Origin: Elainella sp. Prado103
Lineage (GTDB): Bacteria; Cyanobacteriota; Cyanobacteriia; Elainellales; Elainellaceae
NCBI GenBank assembly: GCA_025454395.1
Contig: JALOOM010000001.1
Location: 1-64,000, forward strand
Direction: 5' to 3'
Length of the DNA stretch: 64,000 nucleotides
How positions within the stretch are numbered: position 1 is the stretch's first letter; every line of letters starts with the position of its first letter. Shown here piece by piece: positions 14,809 to 57,715 of the stretch. The notes under the pieces were generated by a model. The model was not told the DNA's origin. It did not search any database and saw only the letters and a program-made list of their open reading frames with translations. The translations under genes and the position numbers were made by a program.

Positions 14809-15520
14809 GCAATCGATCCTGCATCCGGCGGGCAAAATTGGCATTTTCGGCAGCTTTAGCAGCGGCTTCCGTTTGGATCTGTTGGCGACCATTGCGGATC
14901 ACCCGCATCATTTCCGAAAACTGCACTTCTAGATCGCTGAGTACCCGATCGGCATAGTCATCAGCTCCGCGCTGGATCTCCTCGCATTCGGCGATCGTCA
15001 TCCGCTGGATCTCTTCAAACTCCTGGCGAGCCTGCCGCCGCATTTGATCAATATCCATCATCACTTGCTGCTGCATGGCTTCACATTCTTGCTGTACCTG
15101 CTGGCGAATCTGCTGGGCTTCATGCTCGGCTTGCCGCACAATATCCATGTCGTTGAGGATCTGGGCGGCCCGCTGTTCGGCGGCGGTGATGATCTGCTGG
15201 GCGATCTGTTCGGCATCCTGGATCACTTCTTCTTTGTGCATCAGCAGCTCAGTAGCTTCCTGAAAGGCGGCAGGCAGATTGAGCCGCACCAGGTCGAGCT
15301 GATCGAGCAACTGTTCCTCATCAACCACTGTACGGCGGCTGAGGGGAATGCGCGGACTATCCAGGATGATTTCTTCCAGCTTGTTGAGTTCGCGCTGGAT
15401 ATCTACACCCCCAATCCGAGGGGCATCTCCCTGGGGGACGCGATTCGAGAAGCCTCCCGTTGAATTTATCGAGGCTCTTCGGCGATTGGCTCCGATTCGA
15501 TCGGTGTCTTGGCGTAGCAT
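14804..15520 (-). CDS. DivIVA-like coiled-coil protein
   Basis: Protein of 238 residues dominated by a long Gln/Glu-rich coiled coil (about 85-225), after an N-terminal segment with [21 protein letters not shown]. No membrane segment is seen. Such proteins in cyanobacteria are often automatically named ATP synthase subunit B-like, but the early segment and coiled coil fit the DivIVA/Cdv3 type of cell-division or pole-organising protein better. The gene overlaps the end of coaD upstream by 55 bp, so the two are probably cotranscribed and perhaps translationally coupled. The cell-division role is an inference from the family style and carries moderate certainty. Confidence 0.75.
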
Positions 15521-15981
15521 TTGTAGATATCTAGAGCAACAGCTTGTGGAACGAGATGATCAACTGGCCCGCCAAATCGGGCAATTTCCTTGACGACGCT
15601 ACTACTCAGGAAGCTATGTTCCGTCGAAGTGGCGAGAAAAACCGTTTCCAGGTCATGGTCAAGGGTTTTGTTGGTATGTGCCATTTGCAGTTCCATCTCA
15701 AAGTCTGAAACCACTCTCAGACCTCTCAACAGCACTTTAGCCTGATGCAACCGCGCATAGGTGACTGCCAAACCGTCGAAGCTATCTACTTTCAGGTTGG
15801 CCAGATGCTGGGTTGAGCGCCGGATCTGATCGATCCGCTGAGTCACGGGGAACAATGGCATTTTGTTTGGATTTTGAAAGACTACCACAATCACTTGCTC
15901 AAAGAGACGACAGCCCCGCTCAATGACATCAAGATGACCGCGTGTGATCGGGTCGAAACTGCCTGGATAAATTGCAATCAC
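15466..15981 (-). CDS. coaD: Phosphopantetheine adenylyltransferase
   Basis: Enzyme of coenzyme A synthesis that transfers AMP from ATP to 4'-phosphopantetheine, giving dephospho-CoA. The start [20 protein letters not shown] carries the nucleotidyltransferase T/HxGH motif. Later motifs include [22 protein letters not shown] and the [17 protein letters not shown] segment with the ISSS-like signature. The open frame reaches a TTG at 16011, but the GTG at 15981 gives the standard family N-terminus and 171 residues, so I chose it. The C-terminal 15-20 residues extend past the family norm and overlap the next gene. Confidence 0.95.
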
Positions 15982-16011
15982 GATTCTATGCCAGCGATCG
16001 GGTTGGATCAA

Positions 16012-16360
16012 ATGTGAACTGAGGCGATTATACCGAACTGGCTTACCCCGATCCCATTTCTGGGTTCCGATCCCCGCTTGATCTCCAGTTCAAGGGATTT
16101 GGCTTCGCTGAATTCGTTCTCCCTGTTGTCTTAAGTCGCTGGGCGTAATGGAATACAAGATAGGTTTGGGGGTAGAGGGGGCATTTTGCAGTTCATTCCA
16201 ACCCCAGACTCAATTCCTGTGCCTTATTCCTGTGCCTTATTCCTGTGCCTTAACTTTTGCCAAGTCCAATCTTTGACGATCGATTTCAAGATAATTGTCT
16301 TGCAATTGTATGACTTCAGGAGTAGCATGGGTACCTAATTTTAGTTTCGCTTCCGAAAGC
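16012..16360. other. Intergenic gap with 13-bp tandem repeat
   Basis: Divergent gap between coaD and the methylase gene. It holds three copies of ATTCCTGTGCCTT at 16213-16251. Promoters for both sides must lie here, but I cannot place them convincingly. An in-frame ATG at 16295 would lengthen the methylase by 22 unlike residues. Confidence 0.8.
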
Positions 16361-17791
16361 ATGACTGCTCCATACCTGTCTGTGAAGGAAACCTCTGAAA
16401 TCCTCAATTGTTCTGAGCAATATGTTCGCCAGTTGCTGCGATATGGGGAGATCAGTGGTGAAAAAATCAGCAGTCGGTGGCTGGTGGCCTCAGAATCGAT
16501 TCAGGAGTATCGCATCAAGGGTGAGGATGCCAGCTCCCATATTCCAGATCATGGGCGGCGATCGTGGAGTAAGCCTGAACTCAAAGCCCTCAGCTTTTTT
16601 TCCGGCTGCATGGGACTCGATTTGGGGTTAGAAAAAGAAGGAATTAAGGTACTTCTGGCCTGCGAAATTGATGGGGCTGCTCGCAAAACAATCGAAATCA
16701 ATCGACCAGATATGGCGCTGATTGGCGATATTCGCGATTATTCAGCCGCTGAAATTCGAGCAAAAGCCGGATTGAGTTCAATGGATAAGATTGATGCCAT
16801 CATTGGCGGGCCGCCTTGCCAAGCCTTCAGTAGCGCCGGAAAACGGCAGGGATTTCATGACGATCGAGGTAATGTGTTCTTGACTTTCATCGATTTAATC
16901 ATTGAACTCCAGCCTCAATTTGCTGTGATTGAAAATGTACGAGGATTATTGTCAGCTCCGTTAAAGCATCGACCCCATGACCTGAGAGGAAAGAACTTTC
17001 CACCCTTAACTCAGGATGAACAAAGAGGAGGGGCGCTGCTTTTCATCATGCAAAAACTGAAGCAAGCGGGATATGGCATTTCTTTCCATTTGTATAATGC
17101 TGCCAATTTTGGATCGCCTCAGCAACGAGAGAGGGTTGTGATTGTTTGTAGCCGTGATGGGGCGAAACTGCCCTATCTCACCCCGACTCACTCTGAAAAA
17201 AGACTATACGGTTTACTGCCATGGCGAACATTGCGCGAGGCTTTGATAGGTCTTCCGCCAGAGGGACATCATTTTGTCACGTTTCCAGAAAAACGACTCA
17301 AATATTATCGGCTGCTGAAGCCTGGTCAATATTGGCGAGATTTGCCGGAATCCTTGCATCAAGAAGCATTAGGAGCTTCTTATCACGCGGGGGGAGGCAA
17401 AACCGGGTTTTATCGGCGCTTGGCTTGGGATAAACCTGCTCCTACCTTAGTCACCCATCCAGCAATGCCTGCTACCGATTTGGCTCACCCAGAAGAGGAT
17501 AGACCGTTGAGTATTGAAGAGTACAAGCGGATTCAAGAATTGCCTGATGATTGGGTGATTGCAGGAAAGCTATTGGATCAGTATCGACAGGTTGGCAATG
17601 CAGTTCCCTGCTCGTTAGGACGGGCAATTGCCAGAATGTTACTGACGCATCTAAGCGGAGAAAACCCGATCGTTTATCCAGATTTTCCCTATTCTCGATA
17701 TCAGAAGACGGATGATGTCAGTTGGCTGGCTGATACGATCGGTTGTTTTGAAGCCTCTTCAGCCCAGCAGTTATCTCTCGATTTAGTCTGA
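16361..17791 (+). CDS. C5-cytosine DNA methyltransferase with N-terminal excisionase-type HTH
   Basis: Type II modification methylase of 476 residues. An N-terminal MerR/excisionase-like helix-turn-helix (about 3-52, SVKETSEILNCSEQYVRQLL) precedes the methylase proper. Motif I is ALSFFSGCMGLDLGLEKEG, motif IV GGPPCQAFSS with the catalytic C153, motif VI ENVRGLL, motif VIII QQRERVVIV and motif X QVGNAVPCSL. A target-recognition region lies between VIII and X. The start ATG at 16361 is chosen because the HTH begins at once. It converges with a SinI-like endonuclease gene 32 bp away. The pair most likely recognises GGWCC. The HTH could let the methylase repress its own operon. Confidence 0.93.
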   Translation: MTAPYLSVKETSEILNCSEQYVRQLLRYGEISGEKISSRWLVASESIQEYRIKGEDASSHIPDHGRRSWSKPELKALSFFSGCMGLDLGLEKEGIKVLLACEIDGAARKTIEINRPDMALIGDIRDYSAAEIRAKAGLSSMDKIDAIIGGPPCQAFSSAGKRQGFHDDRGNVFLTFIDLIIELQPQFAVIENVRGLLSAPLKHRPHDLRGKNFPPLTQDEQRGGALLFIMQKLKQAGYGISFHLYNAANFGSPQQRERVVIVCSRDGAKLPYLTPTHSEKRLYGLLPWRTLREALIGLPPEGHHFVTFPEKRLKYYRLLKPGQYWRDLPESLHQEALGASYHAGGGKTGFYRRLAWDKPAPTLVTHPAMPATDLAHPEEDRPLSIEEYKRIQELPDDWVIAGKLLDQYRQVGNAVPCSLGRAIARMLLTHLSGENPIVYPDFPYSRYQKTDDVSWLADTIGCFEASSAQQLSLDLV

Positions 17792-17823
17792 ACCGATTTA
17801 GTCTGAAGGCGAGGATTGCCCAA

Positions 17824-18570
17824 TTAGTCTGAAGATGAAGATCGCCAAGGATTATGGAGTTCAACAGCTAATGCATTGGGATTGTGGCTTAAAACCTGCT
17901 GTACAAAAATGACAAAATTTATTTCAGAGAATCGATCCGTCTTATATTTCTCATTGAAATAAAACCATTGATCACGCCCAGTTTTGGCATCCACTCTATA
18001 CCATTTTTCGATCGGTTGATTAATTCTGACTCGGGAAGATGAGCTATTTTCTGAGTTGCTGCGGTTCTTAACTTGTAGAAGAGAACCATCAGTATGACAA
18101 AAATCGACATGGCGAATCGATTCTCCCCAACAGCAATACCAGCCGTAATCCGCAAGTTGCTCGGCTAAAAATTCTTCTAAGAGCAATCCTTGAATGTTCT
18201 CGGCTGACATCGATAACCTGTGGGCAAATTTGATTTGCTCAAGATGCTCTGTTGTCAGATCAGTCAATCGAGCCTTGATGATCGTATCAACAATTGGATC
18301 GGCCACCGTACTCGGTGGCTGTGAAGTACGCTTTGAAATTCGATTTTCATAGCTATTGTTGTACCGCTTCAACCAAGCCTGAGCCAGCATTTCTGGCTTA
18401 TTGGCTTTCAGAGCTGGAGAAAGTCCTGGATTTCGGTAGCAGGCGGCTAGAATAGTGCGGTGCGCTTCCAGAAATGGCTGATTCTTTTGAGAGAATGTAT
18501 CTTGAAAGATCCGCAAAAAGCTTTCTTCAGACCCTGAATTTTGAATAAGAGTATCAAAATTAACAGCCAC
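17824..18570 (-). CDS. Type II restriction endonuclease, SinI-family-like
   Basis: Protein of 248 residues convergent with the methylase gene. The C-terminal half has GWYCCWGESIRHVDFCHTDG followed by LLQVKNRSNSENSSSS. This gives an acidic residue and Q-x-K arrangement typical of the PD-(D/E)xK nuclease fold, and the KNR-NSENSSSS run is what I associate with the SinI family (recognition GGWCC). No other domain is visible. The scarcity of GGWCC in this window supports that specificity independently. Together with the methylase it forms a complete type II restriction-modification system. The family call is by pattern memory only. Confidence 0.75.
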   Translation of the reverse strand: MAVNFDTLIQNSGSEESFLRIFQDTFSQKNQPFLEAHRTILAACYRNPGLSPALKANKPEMLAQAWLKRYNNSYENRISKRTSQPPSTVADPIVDTIIKARLTDLTTEHLEQIKFAHRLSMSAENIQGLLLEEFLAEQLADYGWYCCWGESIRHVDFCHTDGSLLQVKNRSNSENSSSSRVRINQPIEKWYRVDAKTGRDQWFYFNEKYKTDRFSEINFVIFVQQVLSHNPNALAVELHNPWRSSSSD

Positions 18571-18649: not shown

Positions 18650-19498
18650 CTAAACCACCTGCTGTCGTAAAAAGGTGAGTAAGGACTCGTTGACCTTCTC
18701 ATGCCAATCTTCCTGAGGGTAATGCCCCACCTCTGCCAATTCCACCAACTTGGCATTGGGCACCTGTTGGGCAAAAGTTTGGGCTTCTGAGACGGGCACC
18801 CAGGGATCGCGAATTCCCCAGGCGAGCAGGATCGGCTGCTGCCAATCTTTGAAGCCAACATCGATCGCGCTCAGCGCGGGAGCGAGCTTCAGATTTTGCA
18901 GCAGGACAAACAGCGATCGACCCGCCGCAGAACTTTTCAAAAATGGGCGACGATAGACATCCAGGTCAGCATCTTCGACCCGATAGCCGCCACCACCTTC
19001 CAACGTCCGATCCACCAATAGCGGATCCTGCGTCATCATTTCTCCCATGAGCGGTAAACCCATCTGCTTGATCTTCCAGGGCAACTTGCCCGCCGGAGTC
19101 AGAGGCACATTCAAAATTGCCAACCGATCGATCTGCTGCGGATATTGCAAGGCATACTGCAACCCAAACGTACCCAAGAAGCCCTGAACCACCAGATGAA
19201 ATCGATCGATTTCCAACGCTGCTAGCCAGTCGGCAAGGGCTTGAACGTAGGCTTCGGACTTGTAGTTAAACTCTCGACGATCAGGGGTGGCGGACTTACC
19301 GAAGCCGATCCAATCAGGAGCTAGGGCGCGGAACCCTTGTTCAGCTAGAGCAGGCAAGACATTCCGCCAACTGTAACTTTGTGCGGGCAGATCATGCAGC
19401 AGCACCACTGGCAGCTTATCGGATGCAAAGGACGGTTGCGCTTCTCGATAGAACCAGTCCAACCCCTTAACCACGATCGAATGTTCTTGAATGGTCAC
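18650..19498 (-). CDS. Alpha/beta-fold hydrolase with replaced nucleophile
   Basis: Protein of 282 residues with the haloalkane-dehalogenase/epoxide-hydrolase type of fold. The oxyanion-side motif is VVLLHDLPAQSYSW, then PDWIGFGKS. The nucleophile elbow reads VVQGFLGTFG, so the expected Ser/Asp/Cys position is occupied by F107. The late acid (GIRDPWVP) and histidine (VGHYPQED) remain. Cyanobacteria have related proteins of this length that are annotated only as hydrolases. Loss of the nucleophile suggests a binding, cofactor-type or different catalytic role. This is an inference from the alignment in my head and depends on where the elbow is placed. Confidence 0.85.
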   Translation of the reverse strand: MTIQEHSIVVKGLDWFYREAQPSFASDKLPVVLLHDLPAQSYSWRNVLPALAEQGFRALAPDWIGFGKSATPDRREFNYKSEAYVQALADWLAALEIDRFHLVVQGFLGTFGLQYALQYPQQIDRLAILNVPLTPAGKLPWKIKQMGLPLMGEMMTQDPLLVDRTLEGGGGYRVEDADLDVYRRPFLKSSAAGRSLFVLLQNLKLAPALSAIDVGFKDWQQPILLAWGIRDPWVPVSEAQTFAQQVPNAKLVELAEVGHYPQEDWHEKVNESLLTFLRQQVV

Positions 19499-57641: not shown

Positions 57642-57715
57642 GGGCTTGTAGCTCAGTGGACTAGAGCACGTGGCTACGGACCACGGTGTCGGGGGTTCGA
57701 ATCCCTCCTAGCCCG
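57642..57715 (+). tRNA. tRNA-Arg (anticodon ACG)
   Basis: The acceptor 5' strand is GGGCTTG and the 3' strand ends CTAGCCC plus discriminator G. The D arm is AGCTCAGTGGACTAGAGC, the anticodon stem CGTGG/CCACG closes the loop CTACGGA, and the T arm has GGGTTCGAATCCC. The anticodon ACG reads CGN codons. The anticodon arm contains the only GGWCC site I found in the window (57678-57682). Confidence 0.95.

Follow-up and report, generated by a model that had tools for sequence, protein, structure and literature searches.

Restriction-modification and the GGWCC content of the genome

Within the 64,000-nucleotide stretch of Elainella sp. Prado103 DNA analysed here (the window), a gene for a DNA methylase and a gene for an endonuclease lie side by side, and the sequence GGWCC is nearly missing from the DNA around them. 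This raises the question of whether the resident pair acts on GGWCC and, if so, whether it is this pair that emptied the genome of its own target, as a preliminary description of the window had proposed, or whether the avoidance of the site and the genes now present have separate histories. We therefore analysed the two proteins, counted the site within and beyond the window, compared the locus with that of relatives, and compared the depletion across 195 related genomes.

A predicted AvaII/SinI-type cassette

The two genes are found where the preliminary description had placed them, at 16.4-18.6 kb. They are convergent and separated by a gap of 32 bp:

16361..17791, + strand: M, C5-cytosine DNA methyltransferase, 476 aa from the ATG at 16361 (PF00145, E 9.6e-58)
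16373..16510, + strand: N-terminal HTH of M, of the HTH_17/excisionase type (PF12728, E 6.6e-7)
17824..18570, - strand: R, type II endonuclease of the AvaII/SinI family, 248 aa from a GTG start (PF09570, AvaII structure match)

R matches the RE_SinI profile PF09570 over residues 43-228 (E 1.9e-37, 129 bits against a cut-off of 22), with no difference seen in the defining features of the family. It also matches, in a phmmer search, the solved structure 6g3b of AvaII (E 4.6e-33), the R-M enzyme of Anabaena that recognizes GGWCC and for which the crystal structures 6G3B, 6S48 and 6S58 are available (PMC7337904). When the residues that the AvaII study singles out (PMC7337904) were mapped onto R through the alignment, the PD-(D/E)XK catalytic residues proved to be kept, with AvaII E123, D147 and the lysine of QVK corresponding to E132, D156 and K168 in R. 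The base-reading residues N116, N167, N170 and S171 of AvaII are likewise found as N125, N172, N175 and S176, while H108, M112 and E115, which in AvaII bind the metal ion responsible for the preference for W over S (PMC7337904), correspond to H117, M121 and E124. As judged by sequence, R is therefore alike to AvaII in fold family, catalytic residues and base-contacting side chains, the W-reading trio included, although the sequence as a whole has diverged and T168 of AvaII, which makes a main-chain contact, is a Ser in R. The profile match and the conserved W-selecting residues bear out the SinI/AvaII-like specificity suggested previously for the endonuclease, and this strong sequence evidence makes GGWCC the likely target of R, which would cut the site in its unmethylated state.

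In M, the motifs GGPPCQAFS, ENVRG, QQRERV and GNAVP are intact, retaining the conserved PCQ, ENV, QxRxR and GNAVP, and M is the only PF00145 match in this genome. An in-frame TTG at 16295 would extend the protein to 498 aa; orthologs begin at the ATG. From its family, M is expected to produce 5-methylcytosine, and it is predicted to methylate GGWCC. A SinI-type R lies beside the close orthologs of M, but relatives with 55-60% identity pair with GGNCC-type nucleases of the Eco47II, EcoO109I and TdeIII types, which makes this specificity less certain for M taken alone than it is for R. Together, M and R would constitute a type IIP restriction-modification cassette of the AvaII/SinI type.

Depletion of GGWCC is genome-wide

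GGWCC occurs once in the window, against 111 +/- 11 sites expected from 100 dinucleotide-preserving shuffles. Our recount agrees with the preliminary description in both the number and the position of this site, which spans the last anticodon base and the loop of a tRNA and extends into the stem:

57678..57682, + strand: GGACC, the sole GGWCC of the window, inside tRNA-Arg(ACG) at 57642-57715

The shortage was upheld when the count was carried beyond the window. The source genome comprises 5.84 Mb in 157 contigs, and our depletion figures derive from a 408-kb sample and from sampled whole-genome pattern counts. In 344 kb elsewhere in the same genome (20 stretches), we found 10 sites where 581 were expected, so that the combined 408 kb of window and stretches holds 11 against 693, or 1.6% of expectation. 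The sampled whole-genome count of GGWCCN5RRR gave 71 oriented hits, which extrapolates to ~280 GGWCC sites in 5.84 Mb. GGWCC depletion is thus genome-wide. With S as the middle base the deficit is far smaller: GGSCC was counted 73 times against 166 expected in the window (~0.44) and 396 times against 978 in the 408 kb (~0.41), a contrast of ~25-fold. The earlier assertion that the shortage is specific to W consequently stands, though less cleanly than it was put, as GGGCC/GGCCC cannot be called common at 0.41-0.44 of expectation.

Other extreme gaps in the 408 kb were CAGCTG (1 observed, 135 expected), GGCGCC (1 and 119), GACGTC (0 and 60) and GTCGAC (0 and 60). ACGCGT, at 1 against 51 in the window and L120-L139, is similarly scarce, and together with GACGTC, GTCGAC and GGCGCC it is depleted as GGWCC is.

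The cassette occupies a site that is empty in related species

The genes flanking the pair are neighbours in relatives that lack it:

15466..16011, - strand: coaD-like gene to the left of the insertion, next to the hydrolase gene in pair-less relatives
18650..19498, - strand: alpha/beta-hydrolase gene to the right of the insertion

In G001, G003, G014, G017 and G010 a distance of ~180-250 bp separates the hydrolase gene from coaD and neither R nor M is present, and the site is thus empty in other species of both the genus and the family. In addition, the convergent M-R unit recurs at unrelated loci in many cyanobacteria, with M being 74-87% and R 65-81% identical. Since M is more similar across cyanobacterial families than the flanking hydrolase is within the genus (just 67-76% identical), and since the site is empty in relatives, we conclude that the cassette moves horizontally. 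These comparisons are most economically read as an arrival of this copy once the lineage had separated from its sister species, presumably by entry into the gap between the hydrolase gene and coaD. Since close relatives without the two genes avoid GGWCC equally strongly (see below), the pair gives the impression of a mobile newcomer rather than of the sole cause of GGWCC avoidance.

Depletion without the pair

Among the 195 genomes, and with relatedness uncorrected, the median GGWCC/CCWGG ratio was 0.069 in genomes carrying R compared to 0.267 in those with neither gene (Mann-Whitney p = 1e-5). Within genera, however, the relationship between R presence and depletion was not significant (11 genera with both states, Wilcoxon p = 0.10). 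Moreover, 32 of the 166 genomes without an R or M ortholog were at or below the median of the R-carrying genomes. The congeners G002, G003 and G004 have no R or M ortholog and a depletion equal to that of the present genome, and G014, also without the pair, is depleted as deeply as the R-carrying genomes; a further congener without the pair, G001, is not depleted. Depletion is hence no reliable sign of this pair. The lowest GGWCC density of all 195 genomes, ~13 sites per Mb, was seen in G117 and G135, two members of the same genus (g71), and a SinI-family R was not found in either of them.

We consider it probable that a horizontally mobile AvaII/SinI-type cassette has recently arrived in this genome and that the avoidance of GGWCC stems from this cassette together with other or earlier GGWCC systems. 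Selection would act against GGWCC sites that now and then escape methylation and are cut, the cutting being attributable to this pair and to earlier or other systems that the lineage and its relatives may have gained and lost. A cause of the restriction type is favoured by the lower average ratio of the R-carrying genomes and by the synonymous-level effect described below. Avoidance is known to outlive the systems that have been lost and to be common to relatives whatever their current genes (Rusinov et al. 2015, PMC4687349), and the present case is a clean, extreme example of this known biology. It resembles the cases of Rusinov et al. 2015 (PMC4687349) in combining a depleted site, a resident type II system and depleted relatives without the system, and it differs from them in that the depletion is very deep and was examined across 195 related genomes. 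What it adds is an autoregulation footprint at the M gene and evidence of nuclease exchange, both presented below. As a clean case of near-total recognition-site loss, it separates the current restriction genes of a genome from the sites that its ancestors were selected to lose, and the existence of both undepleted and depleted congeners makes that separation testable.

Several flanking proteins are ~70% identical within the genus, which marks the genus as deeply diverged. Simple ancestral memory is therefore unlikely to suffice for the pair-less depleted species, whose depletion calls for either an unrecognised GGWCC system or recurrent gain and loss. It is conceivable, if doubtful, that in this cyanobacterial group GGWCC avoidance is actively maintained even in species without a recognisable system, either by a restriction enzyme family that has escaped recognition or by cassettes that circulate in the community and turn over rapidly. 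That the pair-less depleted genomes are kept clean specifically by another, unrecognised GGWCC system (different R, divergent or m4C methylase) we regard as unlikely. Such a system would fit the finding that G002-G004 and G014 are as deeply depleted as R-carrying genomes despite the divergence of the genus, and the partners of the M lineage do swap (SinI, Eco47II, EcoO109I, TdeIII and a 263-aa protein). However, a protein search of G003, G004 and G014 found no sufficiently similar C5 methylase, although a very divergent one could escape such a search, the PF00145 profile having been applied to the window's own genome. The m4C methylase matches there were mostly of one conserved type that is present in undepleted G001 too, and from this m4C search we rejected a second GGWCC methylase as the explanation for the depleted congeners.

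Less probable again is the original proposal that the genome was purged solely by the resident pair, as a system of long standing in the lineage. Both genes are intact, with conserved motifs and a conserved promoter element, and the depletion of this genome is near the lowest level in any genome, as this proposal would lead one to expect. Nevertheless, the insertion site is empty in the sister species, G002, G003 and G004 are equally depleted without either gene, and the effect of R within genera is not significant, and the reading of the avoidance as a sign of long-standing restriction by the resident pair is accordingly not supported.

GGWCC is avoided at synonymous sites

When synonymous codons were shuffled within genes, using the 262 open frames with 150 codons or more, ~404 GGWCC sites were expected compared to the 10 seen, and even the lowest of 30 shuffles contained 380. 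Avoidance of GGWCC thus operates at synonymous sites, and neither protein sequence nor codon usage is the explanation. In this genome GGA and GGT account for 7% of the Gly codons ahead of CCN versus 46% elsewhere; their share ahead of CCN was 8% in stretches of G002, G003 and G014 and 78% in the undepleted congener G001. We estimate that, under a simple mutation-selection-drift model, scaled selection of ~4 per site would be required for a 60-fold deficit.

Deamination of 5-methylcytosine at GGWCC, which would have eroded the sites without any cutting, is very improbable as the main cause. A C5 methylase is present, and GGWTC/GAWCC, the product of deamination, shows a mild enrichment, with an observed/expected ratio of 1.22 here and 1.05 in G001 (up 1.16-fold). 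Yet the transversion product GCWCC/GGWGC is equally enriched relative to G001 (up 1.14-fold), which argues against deamination alone. In addition, GGW ahead of CC has been swapped for the synonymous GGS, a change that deamination does not make, and avoidance is mostly absent at the sites of systems that lack an orthodox nuclease (PMC4687349). The product-word comparison and the Gly-codon pattern together thus disfavour this route. An artefact of composition or codon usage with no relation to restriction, for which the depletion of several palindromes in this genome might speak, has a negligible chance of being correct, since it is rejected by the dinucleotide and synonymous shuffles as well as by the Gly-codon test, and congener G001 holds GGWCC at 0.57 of expectation.

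The suggestion that leftover sites persist in functional RNAs holds for the window, where the single site lies in tRNA-Arg, but not for the genome, as only 1 of 63 distinct residual sites in the genome-wide sample overlaps an Rfam-detected RNA gene, that of the small SRP RNA. RNA genes are hence ruled out as the general keepers of residual sites, and the tRNA site plausibly reflects a local constraint. An exact match to the tRNA-Arg arm of the window was not found in the loci examined, which contained few tRNA genes.

A conserved operator-like element precedes M

Immediately upstream of M we identified two elements:

16300..16328, + strand: sigma70-like promoter of M (TTGCAA at 16300-16305, 17 bp, TAGCAT at 16323-16328)
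16330..16358, + strand: operator-like element GGTACC...AGTTTCG-N4-CGAAA, between the promoter and the ATG

The promoter layout and the rough distance to the start codon are the same in most of 21 cyanobacterial orthologs, and the core TTTCGN4CGAA is shared by the window and every one of the 21. In other phyla, most HTH-bearing relatives have the element in the form GGTAC-N-GTTTCG...GAAAC-N-GTACC, whereas it was not found upstream of five M homologs that lack the HTH. The HTH itself is conserved in proteobacterial relatives. An RNA hairpin in place of a DNA operator was ruled out, as the region folded no better than shuffles. The HTH of M is probably an autorepressor domain that would repress M's own promoter through the conserved GTTTC...GAAAC, and by analogy with the M.SsoII and M.EcoRII systems the element is likely a DNA operator for this putative autorepression. 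Autorepressing, HTH-bearing methylases have been reviewed (PMC3874152), and M.SsoII, M.EcoRII and M.Ecl18kI likewise combine an N-terminal HTH ahead of the C5 methylase with an inverted repeat that is conserved at the M promoter. In contrast to these three, the HTH here is of the HTH_17/excisionase type, the operator-like GTTTC...GAAAC lies within GGTAC...GTACC, and repression is a prediction. The footprint upstream of M provides a concrete operator candidate for a large group of GGWCC/GGNCC methylases.

One methylase lineage is joined to several nuclease families

Relatives of M in other phyla are accompanied by nucleases of the TdeIII type (L189, L191, L193 and L210), the Eco47II type (L204) and the EcoO109I type (L211 and L214), so that one methylase lineage is joined to at least four nuclease families. 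The variety of nucleases beside a single lineage shows that R and M change partners. Both G054 and G096 carry an M ortholog without the HTH (73-74% identical), convergent with a 263-aa protein that had no significant Pfam or NCBIfam match and only a sub-threshold similarity to EcoO109I; we regard this protein as a candidate GGWCC nuclease. It is encoded at L033 2729-3520 (-) and L034 657-1448 (+), and both genomes are strongly depleted. As the missing enzyme of the depleted genomes in general it was rejected, since beyond G054 and G096 it turned up only in G150, and there distantly.

In several Halomonas (L209, L212, L215 and L226), M is present and a partner R was not detected. In all of these, M is flanked by one and the same gene pair, probably carA and dapB, and at L211 and L214 this very position is occupied by M together with an EcoO109I-type R.

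A second resident system shows the same pattern

The present genome (G000) also contains a PvuII R-M system on contig C5 (L129, 473-1408 (+) and 1440-2460 (-)). Its methylase matches M.PvuII (E 1.1e-132) and its nuclease matches PvuII (E 3.2e-89), with a C-protein-like N-terminal HTH fused to the nuclease. This PvuII-type methylase was also returned by the m4C search, which gave relatives of it in G117 and G135. The PvuII site CAGCTG, with its single occurrence in 408 kb, follows a pattern like that of GGWCC, and for each of the two resident systems found, the AvaII/SinI-type and the PvuII system, the genome retains the system's own site at 1-2% of expectation.
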